Notes under the pieces: model-generated
The model's database searches: none
What the model saw: the letters and a program-made list of their open reading frames with translations, nothing else
Told to the model about the DNA's origin: nothing
Part shown: piece after piece, positions 5,701 to 21,563 of the stretch
Numbering within the stretch: the stretch's first letter is position 1
Layout of the letters: every line of letters starts with the position of its first letter
DNA from: Ereboglobus sp. PH5-10
Lineage (GTDB): Bacteria > Verrucomicrobiota > Verrucomicrobiia > Opitutales > Opitutaceae
Assembly (NCBI RefSeq): GCF_029504735.1
Contig: NZ_JAQFIP010000016.1
Location: forward strand, 1 to 63,067
Length of the DNA: 63,067 nucleotides
Direction: 5' to 3'
Translations under genes and position numbers: made by a program

Positions 5701-8640
5701 ACGCAGGTCGATGTCGCCGCGAACGAGCAGCCCGGGTTCGCGGGCGAAGGGAACATTGGACGCCTTGAGCACGAGGTCGGGCTGGATGGCGGCCACGGTG
5801 TTGTCGGGGAAAACAACGCTGCCCGTGAGCGTGGCGGGCTGGTTGCCGATGAGGGCGGTGGCGGTGGCGATTTCGAAACGGCGGCCCGTGAGTCGCGCGT
5901 CCGCGTTGATGGCATTGACAACGCCGAGCGGCGCAAGCGGCCGAAGCGCGGCGTCGTGAAGCTGGAGACGGCCTTCGAGCGGTTTGCCGGGGGCGAGGTT
6001 GAGCGAAAGTTCGAGGCGTCCGCGGGGGGCGAGGATGGAATTGCTGTATTCGGCAAAAGCGGAAAGGTCGGCGTTGGTGTCCAGGCGCAGGGTCTCGACT
6101 TCCGGCGAGAGATTTTTATCGAGGGTAAAACGCGCGGCGGCGGTGACGGGTTGCCCGGCGAGGAGCAGGGAAAATTGCTCAAGGTTGATCGTGGAGCCGT
6201 CGGTGTTGAGTTTTGTGGCGAGGCCGGTGATTTCCGGAAGCGGCGGGAGAGCGGGAAGCTTGGCGAAGCGCTTGGGCCAGCGGGTTTGGTCGAAGCTGAG
6301 GCGCGCGATGGTGATGTCGGCATGGGCGTCGGGTTTCCTCAGCGTGCCCTCGACGCGGGCGCTGATGCGCGGTGATTCGAGCGTGATGCCGGTGGCCTCG
6401 GCGAGATTATGCCAGAAAGGGCTGTCGGGCTGGGTGTGGGCGCTGAGCGCGAGCGGGGCGCTTTTGTCCATGCGAAACAGGGTTTCGCCGACGGGACTAA
6501 CGGTGATCGGGATGGTGCCTGAAACGTGGGCGACAAGGGAACGACTCGCGGTTTCGCTGACGGTGAGGCGGTCGATGCCCAGGCCTTTGGGGGTAAGACT
6601 GGCGGCGACATTGATGAGCGCGGAGTCTGGCAGTCCGGGCGTTTCACGCGCGGCGGCGGGAAGCGTTTGCGCGTAGTCGAAACGGGCGTCGAGCGTGACG
6701 GACGCGGAGAGCGCGGCATCGGGATCGGGCAGCGAGGCGTTGATTTCGGCGGAGGCAACATGCCAGGGAAGCGGCCCGGTGTCGACGAGGTCGGAAAAGA
6801 GCGCGGAGTCGATGTTGGCGGCGGTGAAGGAAAGCGAGATGGCGCGCGCGACGGCGGCCTGCAGCGATAACTTGGACACACCATCGGGCGAGGCGAACGA
6901 AAGGGGCTCGAGCGTGAAGGAGCCGTCGTCCGCGCGGCTGAAGGTGGCGGGGGCGAGAAGCGAGAGGAGGCTGGTGTTGTTTTTGCGGATGGAGGCCGAG
7001 GCGAGCGTGACGCTTTGCGCGGAGACGCCGGTGGCGGCGAGGATGAGCTCGGTCCCGGCGGCATTGAGAGTGAGGTTGATCGCGTCGGCGGCGAGGTCCC
7101 GCCCTCGCCAACTGGCGGTGATGTTGACGGGATTCTCGAGCACGGAAGCGCGCGCGTTTTGGATTTCGATGGAGCCGCGATGCTCGGGCGCGGTTGCGGG
7201 TCCCTCGGCGGAAACGGTGAGCGTGATGCCATCAAAAGCGACTCCGGCGGGCAGGAAACGGGCGACGGCCGCAGGCAGAACGCGGGCGGAGAGCGTGGTT
7301 TTGGAAAGCGTGCGCGCAGTGATGTCGTATTGGCCGGAGGCGTTGAGTTGCGAGCCGTCGGGAAGCGCGAGGTCGAGGGCGTTCAGGCGGGTGAGGTGAT
7401 CGTCCTGGGTGAGGTTGATCGCGAGTCGGTCGACGGCGATTCCGGCGAGCTGGATGTTTTCCGCCTGGAGGCGGGCGTCGGCGTGGAGTTTGTCGAAGCG
7501 CGTGGAATCGAGCGCGACTTCGCCGGTGACGCGACCTTGCGCGGCAAACCAGGGTTGTTGCGCGAGATCGGCGTCGAGCGTGAAACGGGATTGCGGCGAG
7601 AGGAGGCGAAGATCGCGCGTGATGGAAACGGGCGCGGAGAGTTTTGCGGCGATGCCGGGGATCGCAATGTCGAGCACGGTGATGTCGATTTGTTCGGGCG
7701 TGCCTTGGGCGTGGAAGGCGATGTCGAGGGGCGGGGCGGATTCCTCTGGCGCGGCTTCGGCATGAGCGGCGATGTCGGCGGTGAGGCGGGTGTCGCGATA
7801 TTCGATGCGCGCCGAGCCGGTCGCGGTTGTGTAGGGCGCGGGAAAATTGACGCGGGCGAGCTGCCCGGCGGTGAGCGAAAGTGACGGGGCGTCGAGCAAC
7901 GCCTCGGAGGGAAGCCAGCCGGCGGGATCGAAACGGGCGGTGAGCGCGGCGGTTTGGTCGAGGAGCTTGATGGTTGCGGCGAGGTTCTCGCCGGCAAGCG
8001 TGGCGTCGATGGTATTGGCGTGCTTGCCGGGGTCGGTGTGCGCGAGGTGCAGCGCAAGCATGCCGGTCGCGTTTTCCAATGTGATGGATGCGGCGGCGGT
8101 GTGATTGCGGTAGCGCGCGGAGACGATTTCGAGGAGTGATTTATTTTTGTCCGAACGCCAGTTGATTGAATCGATTTCGAGAGGCGCGCCGGCGATCTCG
8201 ATCCGACCTTGGTTGAGCCGCAACTCGGGCAGCCACGGGGTGAGTTGCGACAGGATGGAATCAACCGTGCCTAACACGGGCCGGAGACCTCGTGGCGATG
8301 ATGCGGGCGCGGCATCATCGGCGCGGGCGGGCGTGTTTTTTATTGTGACACGGCAGTCGTCGATTGTGACGGGGCCGGGTTGCGAAAAAGCGCGGTGCCA
8401 AAGAAGCAGCCAGGGCGTGTCGAGTTCGACACGGGTGGCGGAAATGTCGGCGGCCGGCGTGGCGACCATCAAATCGGAAAGCACGAGGCGCGAGTAGCCG
8501 TTGGTATCGGCGGCGGCGAAGGTGACGCCGTTTCGCTTGAGCAGCGGGCGTGACACCGGCGCAATCCACCACGGCGATGCGAGCACACCGATGATCAGTG
8601 CGGCAAGGAGGACGAGAAATATGCGGCGTAGGCGGCGCAT
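2734..8640 (-). CDS. TamB-like / Omp85 (TamA/BamA-like) fusion protein
   Basis: In Proteobacteria TamB (inner-membrane anchored, spanning the periplasm) and TamA (outer-membrane Omp85 protein) are separate partners in outer-membrane biogenesis. Here both are in one chain of 1968 residues. Residues 7-29 form an N-terminal membrane anchor. Residues about 30-1250 are repetitive AsmA/TamB-like beta sequence ending in a typical DUF490 C-terminal region, with TSEQILLMVMAGEAP near residue 1147. A Pro/Lys-rich linker follows. POTRA-like repeats lie at about 1290-1640, and a 16-strand-type barrel runs from about 1640 to 1968 with the Omp85 RGYQDGE motif near 1865 and a C-terminal Phe. The frame is continuous, so this is a real fusion rather than two genes. 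The ATG at 8640 precedes the anchor directly. It could bridge both membranes as one polypeptide unless processed. Confidence 0.88.
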   Translation of the reverse strand: MRRLRRIFLVLLAALIIGVLASPWWIAPVSRPLLKRNGVTFAAADTNGYSRLVLSDLMVATPAADISATRVELDTPWLLLWHRAFSQPGPVTIDDCRVTIKNTPARADDAAPASSPRGLRPVLGTVDSILSQLTPWLPELRLNQGRIEIAGAPLEIDSINWRSDKNKSLLEIVSARYRNHTAAASITLENATGMLALHLAHTDPGKHANTIDATLAGENLAATIKLLDQTAALTARFDPAGWLPSEALLDAPSLSLTAGQLARVNFPAPYTTATGSARIEYRDTRLTADIAAHAEAAPEESAPPLDIAFHAQGTPEQIDITVLDIAIPGIAAKLSAPVSITRDLRLLSPQSRFTLDADLAQQPWFAAQGRVTGEVALDSTRFDKLHADARLQAENIQLAGIAVDRLAINLTQDDHLTRLNALDLALPDGSQLNASGQYDITARTLSKTTLSARVLPAAVARFLPAGVAFDGITLTVSAEGPATAPEHRGSIEIQNARASVLENPVNITASWRGRDLAADAINLTLNAAGTELILAATGVSAQSVTLASASIRKNNTSLLSLLAPATFSRADDGSFTLEPLSFASPDGVSKLSLQAAVARAISLSFTAANIDSALFSDLVDTGPLPWHVASAEINASLPDPDAALSASVTLDARFDYAQTLPAAARETPGLPDSALINVAASLTPKGLGIDRLTVSETASRSLVAHVSGTIPITVSPVGETLFRMDKSAPLALSAHTQPDSPFWHNLAEATGITLESPRISARVEGTLRKPDAHADITIARLSFDQTRWPKRFAKLPALPPLPEITGLATKLNTDGSTINLEQFSLLLAGQPVTAAARFTLDKNLSPEVETLRLDTNADLSAFAEYSNSILAPRGRLELSLNLAPGKPLEGRLQLHDAALRPLAPLGVVNAINADARLTGRRFEIATATALIGNQPATLTGSVVFPDNTVAAIQPDLVLKASNVPFAREPGLLVRGDIDLRIKNSDTPAGSVPVIQGSLRLRESLFLADMRAFWSTRPASGPESRPPFFAIETPPLDKWRLDVDVRGPGFLRINTTVFAGRLSAAFKLDGTLGDPRLVGDATIDSGKVLLPFATFTAQSGRVRLTQAAPHMPRIEFTAASRTLGYDLRMEVRGTAENPRLTFTSSPALTSEQILLMVMAGEAPNNEINYSDQQRALSFGTYLGQGLINDIFGLSPDESRLTLISGEKLTRQGRETYTVEYKLDERWTAVGEYDEFDAYNLGMRWLAYRSKIRGPAAPPKPSEKNAEAEKSSPPKIKVRGRGFWANLTSKRMLQRTLSLDKTHGPALTANEVEDAAFLLISQLVEKGYMHPKLTITAIPAPPGAPLTFTTNETLELDLPRELSAISARFKIETGKRYKLNEVIFTHTGPSTIADDDARQFFLPDTSLFGDKTIPYAPAAISSAAAALEETLKQRGYAGALVTVADLRIDDDTGRVAAQININEGPLWEINSLDARFPETVQVTAVETNDIALETLLAKLRRDFVSKPWSQWTQQDIAEQIRQYFYRKGYPDIIAQIAIATPAAPDSTAPRADDARTVTPVAVRVDITPGPQVRLGIVKIEGNRHTRPSLISRRIRLLPGDLLNPLAIEAARFRISRLGAFRGIEAGYAHDGSAERDLTFTLTESPGTNLSLLLGWGSYEQLRGGFEIRRLNTLGIADQTRLQVIQSSKSTNGDLTFSVPDLFARNVNGSVSAFGLRREEAAFKRIEYGGTVTLRRAWPRRGYEVSSGYTYESLNNTRDSLSPEAGKTARTIAATINLSIARDRRDNPLSPKRGYNWYLQGEFASHYLGGRTDYHRYRAGFNYHTSWGRTRWIHAGISQGLISPFGNRDTPLPINKLFYPGGENTIRGYQDGEAAPRDANGAFLGAKVYTIINLELEQALIGNLNFVIFYDLLGASANLADYPGNEWLNSAGVGFRYHTILGPLRLEYGRNLNPRTDDPGGTLHFSIGIPF

Positions 8641-10050: not shown

Positions 10051-10194
10051 TAATCACGCCAAACACGAAATCGTGCGAACATGGCGTTTAAAAGCTCCCC
10101 ACCCCGCCGGCACCGATCCGTAAATTGCAGGAAGCGCATGGAGCGCATGCGGTTTGCCTCGCGTTCGCACACCGAGTTCATTGTATGCATTTTC

Positions 10195-11400
10195 ATGCCG
10201 CAAGCTTTCACAAAAACGTCACGCCGCGCCCCTTCCTCAAAACCATTCCGTGCCGCGCGCCGGGGCGCCTGTTGCGCGGCGACTTTGATTCTCCCCGCGC
10301 TTTTAATTTGCGCCATTTCCGCAGCCCCCTCCCCCGCCCCAACATCCGCAACCAACAAGCCGAATGCCGCGCGCGACCATCAGAAAATAACATCCGGCAT
10401 GGATTGCATCGCCATCAGCAACACCGCCGAAAAATCAGTGGAGATCCATAATTACAACGACACGACATGGGACGCGTCCACCCGGCTGTGGCAGTTCAAA
10501 CCCGTGCCCGAACTGGGCTTTTCCCCCGACGCCATCAAGGCGATGGGAGCCGGCGTGGGCGACCTGAAACTTCGCAACACAACGGGATTCCCCGGCAAGG
10601 CGGCGTCGGCCTGCGCCGTGCAGGGCGGACGCTGGCTCGCCGTGGTGGCACATGAGCCCGCGGGCAATCACGTAAAAGGGCAGAAACTATGGGAGAAAAT
10701 TTATCCGCCGGCGGAAGACCCCAACAATCACGCCGTGGAACTCCTCCCCAACGGCAACCTCGCCGTCGCGGGAACGGGGCAACGCCGCCCCGGCAAGGGC
10801 AACTGGGTGCGAATATACAACACCTCCAACCCCGCCGTGACGGATGATTATGCCGAGGCGCCGCTTTACGCCGCGCACGCCCTTCTTTGGGATCCGGCTT
10901 ACAACATCCTGTGGGCGGGCGGCACGATTCATATCGAGGGCAAGGAATGGCACGGCATCTTTGCCTATATTATTGGCGGAACGAGGGAGCGTCCGACAAT
11001 CACCGAGGATGTGTCCAAAAGAAGCATCAGGCCGCGCGGAGCGTCTCCAAACGGACTCAAATGGCCGCACGACCTCTCCCCGGATTTTGATGATATTAAT
11101 AAACTATGGTATGCTGATCATTCCGGAGTATATGTTTATAACAAAACAGAAAAAACATTCACGCCGGCCCCCGGGGACGCGCGACGATTCGACGGGGTTA
11201 ATATTAAATCGGCCGGGAAGCTGCCGGGGAAGAACGGAAAAATTATTGTCACCGAGTCATCCAACAAACCGGGCCCGTGCCGTTACACAACAAACACGGT
11301 TTCCTTCTACGACCCGGCCACGGGCGATTTGTCATTCACACGCACCACCCCCGCCTGCACAATATACAGGGCGAGAATATGGTCCCCACGCTACCAGTAA
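10195..11400 (+). CDS. secreted protein, DUF6528-like
   Basis: An exported protein of about 400 residues. I chose the ATG at 10195 (MPQAFTKTS) because it puts a signal peptide directly at the N-terminus, with the hydrophobic core ATLILPALLICAISAA. The mature part begins with a DCIAISNTAEKSVEI segment and has repeated Trp/Gly-rich beta motifs (WAGGTIH, LWYADHSGVYVYN), as in beta-propeller-like proteins. The resemblance to DUF6528 is from memory and is moderate. Enzymatic function is unknown. The gene ends where the repeat blocks of the RHS array begin, so its last residues could be altered by that boundary. Confidence 0.6.
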   Translation: MPQAFTKTSRRAPSSKPFRAARRGACCAATLILPALLICAISAAPSPAPTSATNKPNAARDHQKITSGMDCIAISNTAEKSVEIHNYNDTTWDASTRLWQFKPVPELGFSPDAIKAMGAGVGDLKLRNTTGFPGKAASACAVQGGRWLAVVAHEPAGNHVKGQKLWEKIYPPAEDPNNHAVELLPNGNLAVAGTGQRRPGKGNWVRIYNTSNPAVTDDYAEAPLYAAHALLWDPAYNILWAGGTIHIEGKEWHGIFAYIIGGTRERPTITEDVSKRSIRPRGASPNGLKWPHDLSPDFDDINKLWYADHSGVYVYNKTEKTFTPAPGDARRFDGVNIKSAGKLPGKNGKIIVTESSNKPGPCRYTTNTVSFYDPATGDLSFTRTTPACTIYRARIWSPRYQ

Positions 11401-11417
11401 ACGCGACTCGCGCGATG

Positions 11418-11655
11418 TAAGGTGAACCATCCAAGCCAACAACCATGGCAAACAACGTCCCAGCTTCGGCTAAAACGCGATGAGCAGCTTTTGTTCGCTC
11501 CGCTCGGGGCTGTTTCGCCGCGACGCACGACGCCATCTCCGCACTGCCCCGCTCCGCTCCCCCAGGGCAAACACTCCTTCCGTTCACGGCCTAGTTCATC
11601 CAAAATGCCCCGATCAGACTTGCGATAGGGATGCAACTGCCCATGCTATGCAAAA
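11418..11655. repeat. array repeat block R1
   Basis: First copy of a block that recurs near 13661, 16183, 18734 and 20089. It starts with GTGAACCATCCAAGCCAAC, passes through CAGCTTTTGTTC and a CACGACGCCA segment, and ends with TGCAACTGCCCATGCTATG. The second half is shared most closely with the block ending near 19120. In this array it stands in front of an RHS-core copy. Confidence 0.8.
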
Positions 11656-11820
11656 AAAACTCGCACACCAACCCATCGCGCGCGCACCTCGACAACCCCA
11701 CATCGCGGTCAATTTTGCTTTTCCTATGTCTACAACGGCACCCAACCCGTCGCCGAAATTGACGCGACCACGCGCCGGCTGCTGCGCACCTTCGCTTGGG
11801 GCGCTACCGGCGAACTGCTC

Positions 11821-13173
11821 ATGATCCACGACCGCACAATCCCCGCCAGCACGCAAACTTACCTGCCCGTGCGCGACGCCTCAGGCAGCGTCACGGCCTT
11901 GGTGCGCGACGATGGCAACAGCACTACAATCGTCGCCGTTTACGAATACGACCCCAACGGCAACCTTCTGCGCGCGCAGGGCGAGTATGCGAAGAAAAAC
12001 CCCTTTACCTTTGGCGGCGGTTGGATGGATTGGGAGACGGGCCTGGTTGGCGCCGGCTCGGTGTATTATTCCGCGCGGCTGGGACGCTATATAAATTCCG
12101 GACCTTCCGGTGCCGGCGATGGCATCAGCGCCTGCTTTGGCGTCGATCCATCCATCAGTTATCACCACACGCGCCAATACGCCCGCCCGTCCTCGCGACG
12201 CAACACCTCCACGCCGAGCTGGCAGTCGGTCAATCCCGCCGAGCTGGCGGCCTACGAGGCGGCGTGGACCGCCTATGAAACAGCGCGGGTAGCCTATGAG
12301 CAAGCCGCGGAGGCGGAGAGCATGGCACTGGACGGTGAACGAAGCCATAATCCCGATTGCGAGTCGCCCGAGGATAATACGGCCGATGAGTTCATCGCGG
12401 ATGAGCATGACTATCATCAAAATGCCGTTTTTGACTCCAGGGACCACGGCTTGAGCGATGCCTATTTGATAGGCACGGACCACCGCGAAGGCGGCGCTTA
12501 TATTGAATATTACAGCGACGGAAGCATGCTGGTGACAAACACCCTTGGCAGCACCCTCTTGATCGAAAATGACGGCACTGCCACACTAAATTTTAGCGAT
12601 GCCCAACTGGAGATTATGCAAGCCCCAATCAGCGCACCGGATGTTTGCTTTAGAGAAGATGGAGGCATTGAGGGTGGTGGTGCATTACTTGCTGGGCCGC
12701 TTGTTCCGGGAGCGCTTTCTAGTAGCAGCACAGCAAAGTCTAAATCAGGAACTGCAGAAGTTTATATATGGGATTATAGAGGAAAAAAAGTAGCTTATGG
12801 TCATGCATCAATGAAGCTTGACGATGGGACTTATATTAGTTTCTGGCCGCAAGCTACAGGACGAGACCGGTCCAAAATATCGAGCCGCCTTTATACAGTG
12901 GCAGAAATTCAAAATCAAACATATGCTGATGACGTTAGACTAAAAGACGGACGTGCCCCTGACCATATTATAAATGTAACCAATCTCGACACTGATAATA
13001 TTCGTAATTTTTGGATCACATGGCAGGACGATAAAAATTGGTCTACAATTCGCTATAATTGCGCAGCTACAATTTATAATTGTCTTCATGCAGGCGGAAA
13101 ACCCCGGGAATTTGAATTCATTTGGCCCCCCGCAGATGTTAAAAATTATGCAAACAAATACAAAGACAAATAA
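11821..13173 (+). CDS. RHS core end with peptidase-like toxin tip (unit A)
   Basis: RHS homology begins at about 11725 (YVYNGTQPVAEI), in the same open frame but with no good start; the first ATG is at 11821. The core ends in the RHS-associated motif YYSARLGRYINS. A linker of about 150 residues follows, and from here to 12632 the DNA matches unit C without indels. After the APIS residues the sequence changes completely to a tip of about 180 residues. That tip has a conserved-looking His in GHASMKL and, later, a Cys in RYNCAATIY. This His-before-Cys order is that of permuted papain-like (YaeF/LRAT-type) amidases and peptidases, so I infer a toxin of that class. The tip is clearly more AT-rich than the core. 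Thousands of bases of N-terminal RHS repeats are missing, so this is a displaced tip rather than a working RHS gene. It overlaps the next gene by 26 bp. Confidence 0.75.
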   Translation: MIHDRTIPASTQTYLPVRDASGSVTALVRDDGNSTTIVAVYEYDPNGNLLRAQGEYAKKNPFTFGGGWMDWETGLVGAGSVYYSARLGRYINSGPSGAGDGISACFGVDPSISYHHTRQYARPSSRRNTSTPSWQSVNPAELAAYEAAWTAYETARVAYEQAAEAESMALDGERSHNPDCESPEDNTADEFIADEHDYHQNAVFDSRDHGLSDAYLIGTDHREGGAYIEYYSDGSMLVTNTLGSTLLIENDGTATLNFSDAQLEIMQAPISAPDVCFREDGGIEGGGALLAGPLVPGALSSSSTAKSKSGTAEVYIWDYRGKKVAYGHASMKLDDGTYISFWPQATGRDRSKISSRLYTVAEIQNQTYADDVRLKDGRAPDHIINVTNLDTDNIRNFWITWQDDKNWSTIRYNCAATIYNCLHAGGKPREFEFIWPPADVKNYANKYKDK

Positions 13174-13540
13174 GATTGCCATGTCGCTTGGCATAACAAT
13201 CATGCTAAGCATATGCGTTGTTAACGCAAAACCTGACTGTAAAAATTATCCTATGAACAACAGGCCGCAATACTCTGAATCCGAAATTAAATCCTTAATC
13301 AAGTTGGGTGATAATATCGGTTATGTTATGAGTAAACTTGGAAAACCAGATCAAGATAACTTAATGGCCAGAAAGGAAGGTAAATCAGTGGGAGGACGGA
13401 GGCTTATGTATATTTACAATCAGGTGAATAATAAAATATTTAACGAAAATAAAGACACATACTTGCGTTTATGGTTCAATACAGATGGTATACTTGAAGA
13501 GATTAATTATCATCACGAGCCGAAGAAGGGGGCAGGTTGA
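13148..13540 (+). CDS. exported putative immunity protein of unit A
   Basis: A 130-residue protein with a Sec signal peptide (hydrophobic core IAMSLGITIMLSICVVNA). The mature domain contains LIKLGDNIGYVMSKLGKPD, the pattern of BamE/SmpA-like folds. Its ATG lies inside the end of the toxin-tip gene, the tight spacing usual for toxin/immunity pairs. I infer immunity from this position and the export signal; no immunity family is recognised. Export implies that the partner toxin acts in the periplasm. There is no Shine-Dalgarno sequence and the DNA is AT-rich. Confidence 0.6.
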   Translation: MQTNTKTNKIAMSLGITIMLSICVVNAKPDCKNYPMNNRPQYSESEIKSLIKLGDNIGYVMSKLGKPDQDNLMARKEGKSVGGRRLMYIYNQVNNKIFNENKDTYLRLWFNTDGILEEINYHHEPKKGAG

Positions 13541-13660
13541 GTTTTGTTGATTTTTGAATACGCCTCCTTACGCAACGCGAACGAACGCCATTGGTCGGCA
13601 AGCTCACGCGAAACGCAAGTCGCACGATTACCTGTTACGAACTTTTTTGGCGTCGTAAAG

Positions 13661-13978
13661 AGTGAACCCACGAGACAACCATTAGCAGTCGATGTGCCAG
13701 AATTCTTCCAGCCTTATGCCAATTATAGAAAACGCGATGGACAGCTTCGCGGCTACAACCCCTTTTACTTGGAAACTTCAAAGTCAAAACTCGCCTACTC
13801 AAACTAAACATTCCAGCAACTTGCCCGCCTCGTGCTGCTTGTCCCTGCTAACCATTCATACTCCCATCAACGGTCTGTTTCACCCGGATTGGTTTCGATC
13901 AAAATCGGTAGGAATGCGACTGCCCATGCTATGTGACTAACCCAGCCAGATCTTGTCGAAAGCATCCATCCGTCAACC
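13661..13978. repeat. array repeat blocks R2 (degenerate) and S
   Basis: 13661-13768 is a degenerate copy of the R block (GTGAACCCACGAGACAACCA start, remnants of GACAGCTTCG and GGCTACAACCCC). 13770-13978 is block S. It recurs almost unchanged at 16354-16562, including the stretch TGCTATGTGACTAACCCAGC, and leads straight into an RHS-core copy both times. An 87-codon open frame across this region is a by-product of the repeats. Confidence 0.8.
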
Positions 13979-14819
13979 GCTGATCATCAGCTTCACCTAC
14001 GATTACGCCAACCGCCGCGTCGGCAAACGCGTGCAGGAAAAGACTGGCGGCCAGTGGCGGGAACGCTACCATCATCTCTATGTCTACAACGGCTCCCAAC
14101 CCGTCGCCGAAATTGACGCCAGCACGCGCCGGGTGCTGCGCACCTTCGCTTGGGGCGCTACCGGCGAACTGCTCATGATCCACGACCGCACCAACACCGC
14201 CAGCCCGCAAACTTACCTGCCCGTGCGCGACGCCTCGGGCAGCGTCACGGCCTTGGTGCGCGACGATGGCAACAGCACTACAATCGTCGCCGTTTACGAA
14301 TACGACCCCAACGGCAACCTTCTGCGCGCGCAGGGCGAGTATGCGAAAAACAATCCCTTCACCTTTGGCGGTGGCTGGATGGATTGGGAGACGGGCCTGA
14401 TAAATGGCGGCCCGGTGTATTACGCACCGCGCCTGGGGCGCATGATAAACACAGCCCCCTCCGGCTCCGGCGACGGCATGGTGGCCTGCTACGGAGTCGC
14501 CCCCACTTACGACAGGCGGCCCGAGCGCCAGTATGCGCGGGCTCCCGCGAGGCGCATAAGCGCGGAATACCTTGTCGCGGCGGCGGAATACAAGCTCGCC
14601 CTGGCCGCGCAGCAGAAGGCGCTCGCCGAGCACGAGGCCGCCACCATCGCGCGTGACGGATACCTCAGCCTTTATCCCGACGACGAGCCGCCCGAGGAGA
14701 ACTTGGCCAGCGAATTTATCGCGAATGACGACTTTTCCTATGGAAACCTCTATATTGAGGATCCGGAGTTGGATTATTGGAACTACTACTTCAACGGGGA
14801 CAATAGCGACAAATCTTGA
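13953..14819 (+). pseudogene. RHS core end without a toxin tip (unit B)
   Basis: The frame opens at a TTG (13953) inside block S. It encodes an RHS-core end (DYANRRVGKRV, VYNGSQPVAEID, FAWGATGELL, YYAPRLGRMINT) near-identical in DNA to unit C as far as the GGWMDWETGL codons. It then has its own linker rich in Ala/Glu and acidic residues and stops at 14819. No toxin domain follows, so the tip was lost or replaced and only the neighbouring lipoprotein gene remains. The N-terminal RHS part is missing, as in the other units. Confidence 0.7.
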
Positions 14820-14826
14820 TACTCTT

Positions 14827-15231
14827 ATGCACACTTTTCTCAAAGTTTTAATGTCTTACACCCTGTTCATGTTAGTTTTCACCGGTTGCGTTTCTTGTGA
14901 GACAACGTCGAATCATGGCATTATGATACATGCAAAAATAGAAATATTGACCATTAAAAAACAACATTGGGTTGACAACCTTGGACCCAAAATTCTCGCG
15001 CGCGGTGACTATCTTGTCCAAGTGCGTTTCTTGGGACCGGAACGCTATCAAGGAGAGGTTGCTGATATTCCACTTGTGAATCTTTCGGATATGGTTTCGG
15101 CCGATAATATTCAGCTTCAAGCTGGTGATATCGTGGAGTTCGACACATCTGAAAAAATGCTCACAGGTGCCGCAAAGCCCTATGTCTTTACTAATTTTAA
15201 AAATGTAAAAAAAGTAACTAAGAAGAGGTAA
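14827..15231 (+). CDS. putative lipoprotein, probable orphan immunity protein
   Basis: A 134-residue protein starting 7 bp after unit B. The N-terminus has a lipoprotein-type signal (SYTLFMLVFTGC), predicting a lipid-anchored Cys at about residue 20. The mature part is a small beta-rich domain with no family I recognise. Placement behind an RHS core and the AT-rich composition suggest immunity to a tip no longer present. Other roles cannot be excluded. Confidence 0.55.
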   Translation: MHTFLKVLMSYTLFMLVFTGCVSCETTSNHGIMIHAKIEILTIKKQHWVDNLGPKILARGDYLVQVRFLGPERYQGEVADIPLVNLSDMVSADNIQLQAGDIVEFDTSEKMLTGAAKPYVFTNFKNVKKVTKKR

Positions 15232-15280
15232 CGATCGGCATGATCCGGAGAGTTAGGTGGCAGATAATTCGGGGTAATAG

Positions 15281-15805
15281 GTTACACTTTTTGCTCCAAT
15301 CAGTGGAGCGGATCTATTCTCCACATCAGGAACATTAGACAATTCCGCACTCGATGGGAAACTTGCTCAAACTGATTTTAAGGACACACTAGAATTAATA
15401 AAGAAGACAGCGCCAAAATTTTATGAATATATGAAGACAAAATATAAACTTGAAGCTTACGGAAACCAAACTGACCCAAAAATGAAAAATATTTCTGCTC
15501 ATACCGACGACAAAACAATATATTTCAACATGAATTTCACGGTGGCATACCTTAATTCTGCCGGAACCCTCGTGCAATTTTTAGCACTCACGATACTTCA
15601 TGAGGCCACCCATATCGGATACGTATCACTTGACCAGCCATCGGGTTACATGAATGAGGAATCCGTGCCTTACTGGGTAGCAGATTGGGCGATCAGAAAT
15701 AATATCCCAGAAACCGACTCTGGGTATCGAGATATTAGTGGCTCAAGGCCCGACTTTAAGCAGATATATAATGATGTTATTCGAAATGGTTCTTATAAAT
15801 TTTAA
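15281..15805 (+). pseudogene. orphan RHS toxin tip, HExxH metallopeptidase-like
   Basis: An open frame runs from a stop at 15278 to 15805. It begins (VTLFAPISGAD) with a match to the tip junctions of units A and C (QAPIS, QAPVSG), so it is a tip cut from its RHS core at exactly that point. The tip has LTILHEATHIGYVSL: HEATH is a zinc-protease HExxH motif, and a downstream Glu (MNEESVPYW) could be the third ligand. No start codon lies near the junction; the first ATG (15431) would lose about 50 residues. I infer a silent toxin cassette that would be used after recombination behind an RHS core. Confidence 0.7.
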
Positions 15806-15811
15806 AATGAT

Positions 15812-16243
15812 ATGCGTGTGTATTTTTTAAATCATTTTTTTGCCATCACTCTGATTATTTTGGCGTCGACAGTGACCGCTTGTGTTAACGCATCAAAAGC
15901 AGTAAAATATACGCGAATTAACGCGACCGTTGAATCTATTTCGAAAGAAGTATGGTTAACTACGTTGCCGGGCGATAATGGTGGCTACGATATGAGTATC
16001 GAAGTTAATAGTCCTATGCAGCTTCGAGGAGTAAAATTTAACGTGTTTGTTCCCAGAAAATATGAACGTAGGTTTGAGAAAAAAAAGATTAATTCAGGGG
16101 ACACGATCAGTTTCGATGTTCCGGATTGGATATTTAACAATTACGGTATGCCACTTTGGTTTTACGAAATGCGTAATATAAAAAGCGAACCATCCAAGCC
16201 AACCATAGCAAACGACGTGCCAGCTTCGGCTAAAACGCAATGA
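15812..16243 (+). CDS. lipoprotein, putative immunity to the metallopeptidase tip
   Basis: A 143-residue protein beginning 6 bp after the orphan tip. A lipoprotein signal (LIILASTVTAC) predicts a lipidated Cys near residue 24. The middle part is a small beta domain (VESISKEVWLTTL, GDTISFDVPDW) of unknown family. The last residues (SEPSKPTIANDVPASAKTQ) are encoded by the array repeat block R3, so the repeat supplies the gene's own C-terminus and stop. I infer immunity from position. Confidence 0.6.
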   Translation: MRVYFLNHFFAITLIILASTVTACVNASKAVKYTRINATVESISKEVWLTTLPGDNGGYDMSIEVNSPMQLRGVKFNVFVPRKYERRFEKKKINSGDTISFDVPDWIFNNYGMPLWFYEMRNIKSEPSKPTIANDVPASAKTQ

Positions 16244-16562
16244 GCAGCTTTTGTTCACTCCGCCCACCCGCTCGCTCCGTTCGAAGCTGTTTCACCACGC
16301 TGCACGACGCCAGCTTCGCACTTCGTGCTCCGTCGGCTACAAGCCCTCATACTTGGAAACTTCAAAGTCAAAACTCGCCTACTCAAACTAAACATTCCAG
16401 CAACTTGCCCGCCTCGTGCTGCTTGTCCCTGCTAACCATTCATACTCCCATCAACGGTCTGTTTCACCCGGATTGGTTTCGATCAAAATCGGTAGGAATG
16501 CAACTGCCCATGCTATGTGACTAACCCAGCCAGATCTTGTCGAAAGCATCCATCCGTCAACC
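16183..16562. repeat. array repeat blocks R3 and S (second copy)
   Basis: R3 (16183-16350) shares CATCCAAGCCAACCATAGCA, the CAGCTTTTGTTCACTCCGCC stretch and CACGACGCCA with R4. Block S (16354-16562) matches 13770-13978 nearly base for base. Together with the start of the RHS core, about 630 bp are shared with unit B, long enough for homologous recombination. Confidence 0.85.
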
Positions 16563-18135
16563 CCTGATCATCACCTTCACCTACGATTACGCCAACCGCC
16601 GCGTCGGCAAACGCGTGCAGGAAAAGGCTGGCGGCCAGTGGCTGGAACGCTACCATCACCTCTATGTCTACAACGGCACCCAACCCGTCGCCGAAATTGA
16701 CGCCAGCACGCGCCGGGTGCTGCGCACCTTCGCTTGGGGCGCTACCGGCGAACTGCTCATGATCCACGACCGCACAATCCCCGCCAGCCCGCAAACCTAC
16801 TTGCCCGTGCGCGACGCCTCGGGCAGCGTCACGGCCTTGGTGCGCGACGATGGCAACAGCACTGCAATCGTCGCCGTTTACGAATACGACCCCAACGGCA
16901 ACCTTCTGCGCGCGCAGGGCGAGTATGCGAAGAAAAACCCCTTCACCTTTGGCGGCGGCTGGATGGACTGGGAAACGGGCCTGGTTAGCGCCGGCTCGGT
17001 GTATTATTCCGCGCGGCTGGGACGCTATATAAATTCCGGACCTTCCGGTGCCGGCGATGGCATCAGCGCCTGCTTTGGCGTCGATCCATCCATCAGTTAT
17101 CACCACACGCGCCAATACGCCCGCCCGTCCTCGCGACGCAGCATCTCCACGCCGAGCTGGCAGTCGGTCAATCCCGCCGAACTGGCGGCCTACGAGGCGG
17201 CGTGGACCGCCTATGAAACGGCACGGGTGGCCTATGAGCAGGCCGCTGAGGCGGAGAGCATGGCTCTGGACGGTGAACGAAGCCATAATCCCGATTGCGA
17301 GTCGCCCGAGGATAATACGGCCGATGAGTTCATCGCGGATGAGCATGACTATCATCAAAATGCCGTTTTTGACTCCAGGGACCACGGCTTGAGCGATGCC
17401 TATTTGATAGGCACGGACCACCGCGAAGGCGGCGCTTATATTGAATATTACAGCGACGGAAGCATGCTAGTGACAAACACCCTTGGCAGCACCCTCTTGA
17501 TCGAAAATGACGGCACTGCCACACTAAACTTCAGCGCTGCCCAACTGGAGATTATGCAAGCCCCAGTCAGTGGATACTTGGGTGGATCAACGGAAGCTCC
17601 GAACACAACAACAGCTTCTCAATCCACTGTCCACAAAACACGAAGTTTTAAAAATGACATATTTGAGCGTTATGAAAAAGGAAAACACAAAGGACAGTTG
17701 AAATTTGTGCATACAGCCAATGGGTCTGAGCGCACTCAAGATGGAAAAAAAATTGAATACCAAGTAGGGTATTTGACGACTATGGATGGCGTTCAAGTAA
17801 CAGCATATAAAAATAAAAATGGGGGTGTTGCCTGGGAGACCAATTGCCATGGTTATTCCGTAGCCGACGGCATGTTTTGGATTGCGCCTGCAGACATGAC
17901 GCACTTGCTCAATAATACCAATTTGTTGGCAAAAGTCACAGGAGATCCCTCAGCAGGCGACATTGCTGTTTATTTGCGTAATAACGAAGCTATCCATTCT
18001 GCAAGATATGTCGGTGACAAGGGAATCTCTTACGCGGACGGAAATAGGATTTTCGAAAATAAAACGAGAATTAATGTCTCTAAAAACATGCTCTATCATG
18101 GTATTACACCAGTATACTACAGGAGGAAACAATGA
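16537..18135 (+). CDS. RHS core end with NlpC/P60-like toxin tip (unit C)
   Basis: The frame starts at a TTG in block S and encodes an RHS-core end (YDYANRRVGKRV to YYSARLGRYINS), then the same linker of about 150 residues as unit A. At 17570, after QAPVS, it switches to a tip of about 190 residues. The tip has ETNCHGYSVADG followed by GDIAVYLRNNEAIHSARYV. This Cys-then-His order with a GDxxxY step is that of NlpC/P60- and CHAP-like cysteine peptidases, so I infer a cell-wall or protein-cutting toxin. The usual DPxG self-cleavage motif after the RHS core is not present; the sequence there reads NSGPSGAGDG. The gene overlaps the next by ATGA. As with unit A, no N-terminal RHS repeats are in this window. 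Confidence 0.78.
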   Translation: MSKASIRQPLIITFTYDYANRRVGKRVQEKAGGQWLERYHHLYVYNGTQPVAEIDASTRRVLRTFAWGATGELLMIHDRTIPASPQTYLPVRDASGSVTALVRDDGNSTAIVAVYEYDPNGNLLRAQGEYAKKNPFTFGGGWMDWETGLVSAGSVYYSARLGRYINSGPSGAGDGISACFGVDPSISYHHTRQYARPSSRRSISTPSWQSVNPAELAAYEAAWTAYETARVAYEQAAEAESMALDGERSHNPDCESPEDNTADEFIADEHDYHQNAVFDSRDHGLSDAYLIGTDHREGGAYIEYYSDGSMLVTNTLGSTLLIENDGTATLNFSAAQLEIMQAPVSGYLGGSTEAPNTTTASQSTVHKTRSFKNDIFERYEKGKHKGQLKFVHTANGSERTQDGKKIEYQVGYLTTMDGVQVTAYKNKNGGVAWETNCHGYSVADGMFWIAPADMTHLLNNTNLLAKVTGDPSAGDIAVYLRNNEAIHSARYVGDKGISYADGNRIFENKTRINVSKNMLYHGITPVYYRRKQ

Positions 18136-18851
18136 AAGTGCAAATATGCAAATCTGTTTGTTTTATATTTTTTATATTATTACTATCAAGCTCAATGTAT
18201 TCTAATGACGTATCCATCACAATAGAGGTTGCCTCAGATCCGTTGCGTTATCGAATTAAGATTAAATCTAACGCAAAGAAACCTATTGAGTTTGATGAAT
18301 CCGCATTTAATCCGCCCAGATGGGGTATAGCTCCATATGGAACGACGATAGTAATTCGGGACGGCAGCGACAAATACATTTATTTGGGGGAGAACGGAGA
18401 GTATTCATCCATTAGCGTAGGCTATGAACTGTTTGGAAAGCCGTCTGATGAGTGGCGTTTATTAAATCCTAATCAAATATGGGAGAGTGAATGGCTTTCT
18501 ATCTTGGATGTTACATATGATATTAAAAGTGTCGTGACCGAAAAAGATCCAAAAAAATGGAAAGATTTTAAAATCCTCTTCAGAATTAGGATAAATAAAA
18601 AAAGTCCAATGCTAGTAAGGGGAGATTCCGATTGGATATCAACTGATAAGATCAGCCTAGAGGAAGTTATGAACCCCGAATCAAAAACGATATTCCAGCT
18701 TCGAGAAGAGCGGAAAAAGCAGGAGCCAAAAAAAAGTGAGCCATCCAAACCAACCATAGCAAACGACGTAAGTGAACCAACGAGCCAACCAAAAGCATTA
18801 GATGTGCCAACTGGATCGTCAGCGCATGCTATTTCTAAAAAAACGCGATAG
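18132..18851 (+). CDS. exported putative immunity protein of unit C
   Basis: A 239-residue protein whose ATG overlaps the unit C stop by ATGA and is preceded by a strong AGGAGG seven bases upstream, the clearest Shine-Dalgarno site I found in the window. A Sec signal (SVCFIFFILLLSSSMYS) is followed by a beta-rich domain with PPRWGIAPYGTTIVIRDG, LFGKPSDEWRLL and a KWKDFKI motif. The tail (SEPSKPTIANDVSEPTSQP onward) is encoded by repeat block R4. It is a paralogue of the protein at 19181-20080. Tight coupling to the cysteine-peptidase tip and export suggest periplasmic immunity. Confidence 0.7.
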   Translation: MKVQICKSVCFIFFILLLSSSMYSNDVSITIEVASDPLRYRIKIKSNAKKPIEFDESAFNPPRWGIAPYGTTIVIRDGSDKYIYLGENGEYSSISVGYELFGKPSDEWRLLNPNQIWESEWLSILDVTYDIKSVVTEKDPKKWKDFKILFRIRINKKSPMLVRGDSDWISTDKISLEEVMNPESKTIFQLREERKKQEPKKSEPSKPTIANDVSEPTSQPKALDVPTGSSAHAISKKTR

Positions 18852-19125
18852 GCAGCTTTTGTTCACTCCGCCCACCCGCTCGCTCCGTTCGAAGCTGTTT
18901 CACCACGCTGCACGACGCCATCTCCGCACTTCGTGCTCCGTCGGCTACAACCCCTCATACTTGCCCCCTGAGACCAAACTCGCCTACATCAAACTGAACA
19001 CCCCAATGACTTGCCCGCACGTGCCACTTGTCCCGGGCAAACACTACTTCCATTCACGGCCTATTTCACCCAAAAGGTCCCGATCAGACTTGCGATAGGG
19101 ATGCAACTGCCCATGCTATGTAAAG
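18734..19125. repeat. array repeat block R4
   Basis: This copy includes GTGAGCCATCCAAACCAACC, a second GTGAACCAACGAGCCAACCA unit, the CAGCTTTTGTTCACTCCGCC stretch and the end segment GATAGGGATGCAACTGCCCA also seen in R1. Its first part is translated as the C-terminus of the upstream immunity-like gene. Confidence 0.8.
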
Positions 19126-19180
19126 AACACTCGCGCACCAACCCATCGCGCTCATCCCAGCAATCCCATGCCACAACGAA

Positions 19181-20080
19181 ATGAGAATATCAATGTTCAG
19201 ATTTCTTTGTTCTTTGTTTTTTCTATTATTAAGCATGAACTCAGTGCATTCCAAAGGTGTGATTATCTCAATAGACGTAACTCCTGATCCACTGTATTAT
19301 CGAATTAAACTTGAATCCAACTCAGAGAAACCTATCGAGTTCAATGAATCAACATTTAGTCCGCCCAGATGGGGAATAGCCCCATATGGAGCACGAATAA
19401 TAATTCGAGATAGAAATGATAAATATGTCTATTTGGGAAAAGGCGGAGACTTTTCATCCAATGATTCGGGATTTGAGCTTTTTGGGCGACCACCTGACAA
19501 ATGGCGTTTATTGAAGCCCAAGCAAACTTGGATAAGCGAATGGTTTTCTCTGTTAGATGTCACATATGGCTTTGCTGCATCCGCAGCCGAGAAAGACCCG
19601 AATAAATGGAAGGACTTTAAGATATTATTTTGGATTGAGATAAACAAAAACAACCCAGAGGTATTGGTGGGAGATTCCGGCTGGGTAACAACCAATAAGT
19701 GCAGTTTGGTGGAAGTTATGCGAGACGAGAAGAAGTCGAGATTCCAAATACGTGTCGAAAGGGGGTTGGCAGGTTATGACTGGGATGATAGGCTTCGCGC
19801 GCGGGAGGAAGCCGAGCAAAAGCAAGCTAATCAAGAAGCGGCATGCTCATGCGGTCTGATTGCAAAATTAAATAGAGAGATGGTGGGCGTCCACATTGTG
19901 GCAGATGGTTGTCTTTGTGAAAAAGAAGGCAACCATTGTCCTTGCTTAGAAGAAGAAAAGGAGATGCAGAAAAAGACCGAGCAAACCGAAGTGAGCAGCC
20001 GGGGAGAAGGAAAAGCAAAAAAGCATTGCCCTTGTGGCCCAAAGGTTGAACCACCTAAGCAAGAGACACGGTGGCCGTGA
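19181..20080 (+). CDS. paralogue of the unit C immunity protein, with Cys-rich tail
   Basis: A 299-residue protein with a Sec signal (FRFLCSLFFLLLSMNSVHS). Residues about 23-190 are clearly homologous to the 18132 gene product, sharing the PPRWGIAPYG and KWKDFKILF motifs and the order of blocks. No toxin tip precedes it, only repeat block R4, so it is an orphan immunity copy. Unlike its paralogue it ends in a charged tail with three CxC-type clusters (CSCG; CLCEKEGNHCPC; HCPCG), which could bind metal or form disulfides. The function of the tail is unknown. Confidence 0.65.
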   Translation: MRISMFRFLCSLFFLLLSMNSVHSKGVIISIDVTPDPLYYRIKLESNSEKPIEFNESTFSPPRWGIAPYGARIIIRDRNDKYVYLGKGGDFSSNDSGFELFGRPPDKWRLLKPKQTWISEWFSLLDVTYGFAASAAEKDPNKWKDFKILFWIEINKNNPEVLVGDSGWVTTNKCSLVEVMRDEKKSRFQIRVERGLAGYDWDDRLRAREEAEQKQANQEAACSCGLIAKLNREMVGVHIVADGCLCEKEGNHCPCLEEEKEMQKKTEQTEVSSRGEGKAKKHCPCGPKVEPPKQETRWP

Positions 20081-20088
20081 AAGAGAGG

Positions 20089-20290
20089 CCTAAAAAGTGA
20101 ACCAACGAGCCAACCAAAAGCATTAGATGTGCCAACTGGATCGTCAGCGCATGCTTTTTTCTAAAAAAATGCGATCGACAGCTTTTGTTCATTCCGTTCA
20201 TCCGCTCGCTCCGCTCGGAGCTGTTTCGCTGCGCTGCACGACGCCAGCTTCGCACTTCGTGCTTCGTCGGCCCCCCCTCATACTTGTCCC
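20089..20290. repeat. array repeat block R5, right end of the RHS array
   Basis: This copy has GTGAACCAACGAGCCAACCA, the TTAGATGTGCCAACTGGATC segment shared with R4, then GACAGCTTTTGTTCATTCCG and CACGACGCCA. No RHS core or toxin tip follows, so this marks the right boundary of the array. 20291-20402 shows nothing recognisable. Confidence 0.8.
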
Positions 20291-20402
20291 CTGAGACCAA
20301 ACTCGCCTACATCAAACTAAAGTGAGCCTCGCCGCCCAAGGGCACCCGCCGCGACCGCCACTCCCCTGCCCTGTCAACCCCGCGTGCGTGCCCGTCTTTG
20401 TG

Positions 20403-20494
20403 CTTATCCACAGATGCCACAGATATGCGCAGATAAATCCCTAGATCCGGCGGTTTGCGCATCTGTGTTCATCTGTGTCATCTGTGGATAAATA
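20403..20494. repeat. palindromic CACAGATG-word element
   Basis: Two imperfect inverted arms of about 35 nt (TTATCCACAGATGCCACAG on the left; TCATCTGTGTCATCTGTGG on the right) surround a short GC-rich centre. The arms are made of repeated CACAGATG words. It lies between the RHS array and the downstream end of the URO-D-like gene (minus strand). Confidence 0.75.
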
Positions 20495-20534
20495 GCTCTG
20501 AGAATTCAATGCGCACACGCTTCAGCGAATATCT

Positions 20535-21563
20535 TCACCCGCCCGCCACGCCGGGCTGCGTGTATTCTTGTAGCAGGCGCAGGTATAGATGGTATTCTTG
20601 CAGGGAAACTCCGGGCGGAGTCTGGTGGTCCACACTCGGAATGAAACCGCCTCGGCGCATGAGGGGCAGCAGGCGCTCGAATTCGCGCCTCATCGCCGCC
20701 TCGCCCTGGTTCATGACGAGTTTGTTGTAATGACCAATCATCAATAAATCGGGATAAGCCTCGCGCAGCGCCAACCCATCGACGCCGGCCTGGTATTCCA
20801 ACGGCAACACGCCGTCCACGCCAACCGATTGCAGCCACGGGACGAGTTTTGTGACATCGCCGTCGGTGTCCACAATGGCGAATGCGTCGAGTTCCTTCAC
20901 GCGCTCCATCAGCCGGCGATAATAGGGGGCCATGAACTCGTCGAATATCGCGCGCGAAATCATGGGACCGTTGTTATAGGACATGTCCTCGGCGATGGTC
21001 AGGAACACGGGCACGCAAACGCGCGAGATTCGTTCGAGCAGGTCGAGATTGTATGCAAGCAAATCCTCGCTGATTTTGTGCACCAGTTCCGGCTGGTCGA
21101 TGTAGGCATACATGAACTGCTCGAATCCCATGAGCGTGCGCGTGAACCAGAAAAATCCCTCGAGCGTGATCCACACCACCAGTTTTCCGTCCTTCTGCCG
21201 CAACGCCCACGGGGTCATGCCGGCGATGGCCTCCTCATGCCTCGGATAAATCTTCGGGCGCAGCGCAAGATAATCGTCCATTCCGGCAACGACTCCCTCC
21301 ACATGGTGCTGCACCGCCTCGATTGTGGACTCGGTCGTGCTGAACCAAAATTGCTTATAGGGATCGAGTCCGAAATGGCATGAGATATCGAACACATCAT
21401 TCAGGGCGGCGGGCAAACCCTCGCCATGCCAGCGCGCGATGGTTTTGTCCCACCACATCGCCCATTCCCAACGGGGCATGCGATCCACGGGCTGGAAACG
21501 CATGACCGCGCGAAAACGCTCAACATGGTTCATCGCGGGTTTTGTCGGGGACGTTTGGTTCAT
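20535..21563 (-). CDS. uroporphyrinogen decarboxylase-like (URO-D domain) protein
   Basis: A 342-residue TIM-barrel protein of the URO-D superfamily. It has the pattern of the MtaA/CmuA-like or uncharacterised subgroup (ERFRAVMRFQPVDRMPRWEW at the N-terminus, IAEDMSYNNGPMIS and IVDTDGDVTKLVPWL further on) rather than true HemE. It is therefore unlikely to be the haem enzyme, although hemC lies 7.7 kb away. Related proteins often sit with sugar-degradation genes in Verrucomicrobiota, and here it follows two GH106-like genes on the same strand. The second Met (MNHVERF) is an alternative start. The substrate is unknown. Confidence 0.75.
   Translation of the reverse strand: MNQTSPTKPAMNHVERFRAVMRFQPVDRMPRWEWAMWWDKTIARWHGEGLPAALNDVFDISCHFGLDPYKQFWFSTTESTIEAVQHHVEGVVAGMDDYLALRPKIYPRHEEAIAGMTPWALRQKDGKLVVWITLEGFFWFTRTLMGFEQFMYAYIDQPELVHKISEDLLAYNLDLLERISRVCVPVFLTIAEDMSYNNGPMISRAIFDEFMAPYYRRLMERVKELDAFAIVDTDGDVTKLVPWLQSVGVDGVLPLEYQAGVDGLALREAYPDLLMIGHYNKLVMNQGEAAMRREFERLLPLMRRGGFIPSVDHQTPPGVSLQEYHLYLRLLQEYTQPGVAGG

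Follow-up and report, generated by a model that had tools for sequence, protein, structure and literature searches.

In the genome of Ereboglobus sp. PH5-10 (Opitutaceae), an open frame resembling the C-terminal tip of an Rhs protein begins almost exactly where the Rhs linker gives way to the tip in two neighboring units. How did this tip come to start at the cassette junction? The first-pass annotation had attributed the start to precise exchange at a short shared sequence and not to a random deletion. The explanation that we favor, and that we consider probable as a whole, is that the frame and the gene that follows it constitute a displaced rhs-CT/immunity pair within a degenerate array of such units; the tip was probably beheaded by an IS481-associated deletion and left as a silent rhs-CT/immunity cassette.

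The window, i.e., the whole 63-kb stretch of DNA analyzed, is the entire contig 16 of the 3.58-Mb, 45-contig draft genome (G000). The features discussed below are listed in Table 1. The 9.1-kb Rhs-fragment array is missing from an approximately 97%-identical relative, G084 (single contig), in which the same flanks are 41 bp apart; the array is thus a discrete presence/absence block. The left flank was 97.4% identical to that of G084 over 8.1 kb, with 96.9% and 95.7% on two other left stretches, and the right flank showed identities of 96.8% and 93.7%. Farther to the left, positions 10052-10151 (about 0.1 kb) of the window correspond to about 3.3 kb in G084.

Table 1. Features of the Rhs-fragment array and the orphan tip (positions in the window)
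Feature	Position	Strand	Remark
Whole Rhs-fragment array	11416..20551	.	41 bp instead between the same flanks in G084
Unit A: Rhs core fragment, linker (to 12632) and tip A	11724..13173	+	
Unit B: Rhs core fragment without tip	13953..14819	+	
immB, putative immunity lipoprotein of unit B	14827..15231	+	
IS481-family terminal repeat	15237..15291	+	outer end toward 15237, inner end fused to linker remnant
VTLF codons from the IS481 end	15281..15292	+	repeat similarity to 15291
Linker remnant APIS	15293..15304	+	aligned to 12622-12633 (unit A) and 17560-17571 (unit C)
Orphan Rhs C-terminal tip, APISGAD... to stop, putative zincin	15293..15805	+	43% to C-terminus of G244 Rhs-core frame
HEATH (HExxH) codons	15599..15613	+	
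immO, putative cognate immunity lipoprotein	15812..16243	+	role from position; lipoprotein by eye
Shared 3' tail and inter-unit spacer repeat	16180..16536	+	
Unit C: Rhs core fragment, linker (to 17570) and tip C	16537..18135	+	
Putative immunity gene of unit C	18132..18851	+	role from position

Units A and C are 97.0% identical over 909 nt, diverge at 12632 and 17570, respectively, and carry different tips beyond. The DNA match between units B and C stops at 14479 and 17063, respectively, close to the point at which the alignment to Rhs_assc_core gives out (model position 58-59 of 76). Two nested boundaries can accordingly be seen: the B/C split near the Rhs_assc_core break, and the A/C split about 169 codons later at QAP[IV]S. 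The G+C content steps from 0.58-0.62 in the cores and linkers to 0.36-0.43 in the tips and immunity genes. For tip C and its downstream gene, homologues were found in another relative, G085, where they form the C-terminus of a 2183-aa Rhs gene and the gene that follows it. The N-terminal 1650 aa of the G085 Rhs gene gave strong matches in G085 and G086, weak partial ones in G084, and no match in G000. No full-length Rhs gene was found in the 45-contig draft, whose draft state means that this absence is no proof, and the only three Rhs_assc_core matches in G000 all lie inside the window.

The orphan frame (15281-15802; 174 codons) is bounded by stop codons, TAG at 15278-15280 and TAA at 15803-15805, and reads VTLFAPISGADLF... 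Its earliest in-frame ATG, GTG, or TTG is codon 51 (15431), preceded by the rare-type codons ATC at 15299 and ATA at 15398. As the first-pass annotation had stated, no Rhs core precedes the frame: none was found upstream in a self-comparison of the array, and upstream of 15293 the ungapped identity to unit A or C was only 14/60. Core remains in 15232-15292 were considered and rejected, this stretch being an IS end. The frame thus has the marks of an orphan rhs-CT: no delivery part, no ATG, GTG, or TTG before codon 51, and a start at or near the core/CT junction. In its present state, the tip can probably be neither translated as a whole nor delivered. Within 14750-16300, promoter-like sites did not exceed the shuffled level (4; shuffled mean, 4.4), and terminator-like sites were close to it (2; shuffled mean, 1.1). 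A terminator-like inverted repeat, GCTCCAATCAGTGGAGC, was seen at 15293-15312 and is absent from unit A.

What ties the orphan to the junction is a short stretch of DNA. The sequence GCTCCAATCAG (15293-15303) falls exactly on the divergence point of units A and C, and homology at the DNA level is limited, as previously noted, to about four codons (APIS). The similarity lay far beyond chance: the best ungapped match between the orphan and unit A (O-A) was equaled by none of 5000 shuffles and by none of 2000 other 60-nt array windows drawn so as to avoid the junctions. The best orphan-unit C match (O-C) was weaker, being equaled by 12 of 5000 shuffles and 8 of 2000 such windows; in an initial draw of 2000 windows that included the junctions themselves, 42 and 57 windows reached the O-A and O-C levels, respectively. 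With at least 17/21 matching bases required, the 21-mer of unit A from 12622 had no counterpart on either strand of the 63-kb window except itself and 15293 (4e-8 per position), and the 15-mer of unit C at ≥13/15 likewise matched only itself and 15293 (3e-7 per position); these per-position probabilities are optimistic because the lengths were picked after the match was seen, and the conclusion does not depend on them. In addition, the match to a relative of the tip in G244, a genome of another genus of the same family, starts at orphan residue 11, directly after APISGAD, and so lends support to this module boundary that does not rely on units A and C.

Precise recombination could have placed the tip at the short sequence common to the three junctions (GCYCCARTCAG) without deletion of an earlier core. 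Units A and C part at that very base with different tips behind, the orphan starts at most five codons from the junction, and the A-O similarity extends slightly beyond the A/C break (21/28), all of which would fit such an exchange. However, no exchange donor was found, common descent of the linkers accounts for the shared 11-28 nt, and the remnant is joined directly to an IS481 end, so that we regard this alternative as unlikely. An IS481-associated deletion is favored by what lies immediately upstream.

A search with 15220-15300 revealed that 15237-15291 occurs at 82% identity in G084, in many dispersed copies at 71-78% in G244, and in four further partial ends (92% over 24 nt); the same search found no other copy of the repeat in the genome of strain PH5-10 itself. 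Copies with unrelated outer flanks fix the left outer end, GGTATGATCC, and the inner end, GGTTACACTTTT. Some copies are elements of about 300 bp with both ends, and others are about 1.3 kb long. At one G244 locus (L104), the same repeat is followed by 11 nt and then by a transposase frame matching the IS481 model NF033577 with an E value of 1.7e-37; this frame is cut by the contig end, and its score of 129.5 bits therefore lies below the cut-off of 224. The repeat was assigned to the IS481 family on the basis of this element with which it is shared.

In the window, the outer end of the repeat begins 5 nt after the stop codon of immB, and its body side faces the tip. The identity to the G084 IS end was 45/55 over 15237-15291 and then 6/21, and that to the linker of unit A was 14/60 before 15293 and 17/21 after it. 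The IS similarity therefore stops at 15291 and the linker similarity starts at 15293, 1-2 bases apart. This switch means that the open frame begins with transposon-derived VTLF fused to linker-derived APIS. The earlier equation of the start LFAPISGAD with the QAPIS/QAPVSG junction of units A and C thus holds for APIS, a real linker remnant, and fails for LF, which as part of VTLF belongs to the IS481 end. The preference for precise exchange over random deletion is not supported by this result, since the repeat ends 1-2 bases before the linker homology starts. A joint of IS and linker points instead to a transposon-associated deletion.

Unlike IS481-family insertion sequences, with which it shares the repeat, the stretch has one end only and no transposase in the window. 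Neither an IS481 transposase nor an IS body is present, and a second terminal repeat was represented in the window only by a 17-nt chance-level match at 60533. With a single end present, a target duplication cannot be read, and 15237-15291 is a remnant end and not an element. The tip and its immunity gene might also have been passengers in an IS481-type element that has since lost its right end. The outer end facing immB with the body side facing the tip, and the occurrence in G244 of copies of about 300 bp with both ends, would be compatible with such cargo. The lack of a second repeat beyond the chance-level match speaks against it, as does the 3' side of immO, which runs into the tail and spacer of other units as expected of an array unit; passenger status is decidedly improbable.

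The deletion itself is inferred, since only one IS end is present. In the reading that we prefer, an IS481 element would have inserted behind immB, and a later deletion from inside this copy into the linker would have taken the IS body together with the spacer, core, and linker of the unit. The tip and the immunity gene would have been left behind as a silent cassette. The tip would once have been a zinc peptidase toxin at the end of an Rhs protein, presumably neutralized by the lipoprotein encoded at 15812-16243. The fusion point is no more than five codons away from the module boundary (for a random end point, about 5 of the 345 core and linker codons would qualify), and this proximity may reflect chance or constraint. 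This explanation addresses the orphan tip and does not cover the missing tip of unit B.

The nature of the tip was examined by homology searches. Among 252 family genomes, G244 was the only one besides G000 with a relative at E ≤ 0.001, sharing 43% identity over query residues 11-170. The tip occurred in 2/384 and 2/387 genomes of the class and phylum samples, respectively, and in 2/252 of the family, with the own genome counted and the samples overlapping. Scans of genome contigs gave 29 pattern matches with the two-tip alignment and 26 with a 65-residue part, and a scan of viral contigs with the 65-residue part gave 21; none was confirmed as a relative of the tip. No match was found in plasmids (72,556 records) or phages (50,697 records).

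The G244 relative forms the C-terminus of a 1133-codon frame with an Rhs core signature upstream, so the same tip was indeed found behind an Rhs core in a relative, as the first-pass annotation had proposed to seek. An in-frame TGA (L037:4153-4155) splits this frame from an 801-codon frame upstream, and an intact full-length protein is not claimed. A stand-alone secreted metallopeptidase gene merely resembling a tip would have the HExxH motif and could be followed by a lipoprotein gene, as is the case here. Such a gene is contradicted by the 50 codons without ATG, GTG, or TTG, by the junction remnant, and by the sole relative found being the C-terminus of an Rhs-core frame, and is extremely improbable. 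On these sequence grounds, the domain is an Rhs tip, in keeping with the earlier description of it as an orphan tip, rather than a stand-alone gene.

The earlier name "metallopeptidase" depends on the HEATH motif and on residues shared with one homologue. The HEATH motif has the HExxH form of Tox-MPTase/zincin domains, and H107, E108, and H111 are retained in the G244 relative; the motif and nearby conserved residues suggest a zinc peptidase, as judged from one homologue. A family could not be assigned: the Pfam scan of the tip gave no match, hence assignment to the Tox-MPTase families is not possible, and the NCBIfam scan gave only weak matches far below the cut-off. The single weak NCBIfam match of the G244 homologue was TIGR04267 (E 0.18), an HExxH family named peptide hydroxylase, not peptidase. 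A PDB search with the tip returned nothing below E 0.8, and a two-sequence AlphaFold model of the tip was unusable (pLDDT 35).

The putative immunity gene immO starts 6 nt downstream of the tip frame with its own ATG, and its product may still be made. It is distantly related to immB (20% identity; z 8.4; 0/500 shuffles), and its 3' end enters a shared tail encoding SEPSKPTIAN... This tail of 40-60 bp (16180-16218, 18731-18769, 11422-11483, 20092-20130, and 13657-13695) was found at or behind the 3' ends of different immunity-like genes and at the left array edge. It also occurs on contigs 2 and 9 and in G085, there following a gene that seems by eye to be the orthologue of 10081-11400, and it may delimit the cassettes on their 3' side. 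At 19181-20080, the unit C immunity gene has a 57%-identical paralogue with no tip in front. On contig 2 of G000 (366000-379000), two tandem paralogous immunity-like genes on the minus strand (5975-6721 and 7394-8260 of this region) end in the same SEPSKPTIAN tail as immO and the unit C gene, beside an apparent IS256/mutator transposase remnant. On contig 9 (5000-16000), a second core-less tip-like frame with an HExxH motif (HELGH; 4182-4625 of this region, minus strand) is followed by a lipoprotein-like ORF and stands behind a segment that seems, by eye, to be a tandem duplicate of an MFS transporter gene's 3' end; a family scan of this frame gave no match.

The module is ordinary in kind, and the cause of its truncation is informative. 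A model in which Rhs tips become displaced into arrays has been published (Jackson 2009, PMC2935791; Poole 2011, PMC3150448). As described in the relevant passages of the studies on Enterobacteriaceae, orphan rhs-CT/rhsI modules resemble the present one in comprising a tip and a downstream immunity-like gene, in lacking a start codon, in forming arrays in which the tips differ and the core fragments vary in length, and in carrying a tip that is joined to an Rhs core in another species (Jackson 2009, PMC2935791; Poole 2011, PMC3150448; Koskiniemi 2014, PMC3967940). Apart from the host, Ereboglobus sp. PH5-10 of the Opitutaceae instead of Enterobacteriaceae, three differences from the modules in those passages were recognized. 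The usual context there is downstream of a full-length rhs, and none was found in the G000 draft; the boundary here is the motif QAP[IV]S, which lies about 169 codons past the B/C split, in contrast to PxxxxDPxGL in enterobacterial rhs; and the 5' truncation at an IS481 end is seen here, unlike in the enterobacterial modules. HExxH domains are known as Rhs C-terminal tips, as here, from the section on Tox-MPTase1-5 and other HExxH toxins in Zhang 2012 (PMC3482391), although the present tip matches no Pfam family.

Orphan CDI cassettes provide a further comparison in the passages of Poole 2011 (PMC3150448) that describe them. The orphan cdiA-CT o1 of Y. pseudotuberculosis PB1/+ region II has no significant identity to the main gene beyond the VENN junction motif, which is comparable to the present case, and IS disruption of orphan cdiA-CT cassettes has already been reported there. 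These orphans belong to CDI, not Rhs, and the passages on them do not mention a transposon end at the junction. Re-arming of a silent orphan by recombination with the main gene has been proposed to proceed via a 522-bp shared region (Koskiniemi 2014, PMC3967940, in the part concerned). The shared core region of the present orphan is gone, and this route is therefore closed unless the few remaining bases are used. To act, the tip would first have to recombine onto an Rhs core, and none of full length was detected in the genome. We therefore prefer to read the cassette as a beheaded relic whose tip frame is still intact.

IS481 ends also lie near Rhs loci in one relative. In G244, 6 of 14 IS481-end sites were within 4 kb of an Rhs core, compared to 0.36 expected (P 7e-7), with 4/14 at 2 kb (P 6e-5) and 6/14 at 10 kb (P 3e-5), where the P values take the sites as independent, use a rounded genome size, and refer to this one genome. 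The 14 sites were obtained by merging 20 of 25 repeat rows, the 5 rows of 14-17 nt being dropped; one kept site (C9:287516) had an E value of 1.2 in the search and is 96% identical to the end at L096. For the Rhs cores, 19 of 21 matches were used and two weak ones dropped. The IS481 end lies 17 nt behind a 200-aa ORF in a second G244 Rhs unit (L106), 79 nt behind a 136-aa ORF adjoining a tip-like frame at L104, and 28 nt behind a 125-aa ORF in G084 (L099). These ORFs are immunity-like by position only, and those scanned gave no convincing family match.

One genome is too few to claim IS481 targeting, and AT-rich, dispensable tip DNA could by itself attract insertions. We offer as a tentative and rather doubtful proposal that IS481-type elements recurrently remodel Rhs tip arrays in Opitutaceae. 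Insertion would take place immediately after an immunity gene, toward which the outer end would point, and deletions starting inside the elements would behead the next unit and thereby yield silent reserve cassettes, whose transcription might be driven by the inward-reading IS end.

For the strain itself, the results suggest that an orphan tip can start at a cassette boundary via a transposon-linked deletion, without junction-specific exchange, and that silent tip-immunity cassettes are carried by a genome without a detected full-length Rhs gene. If IS481 ends do prefer to lie behind Rhs immunity genes, strain comparison would make part of the origin of such arrays testable.
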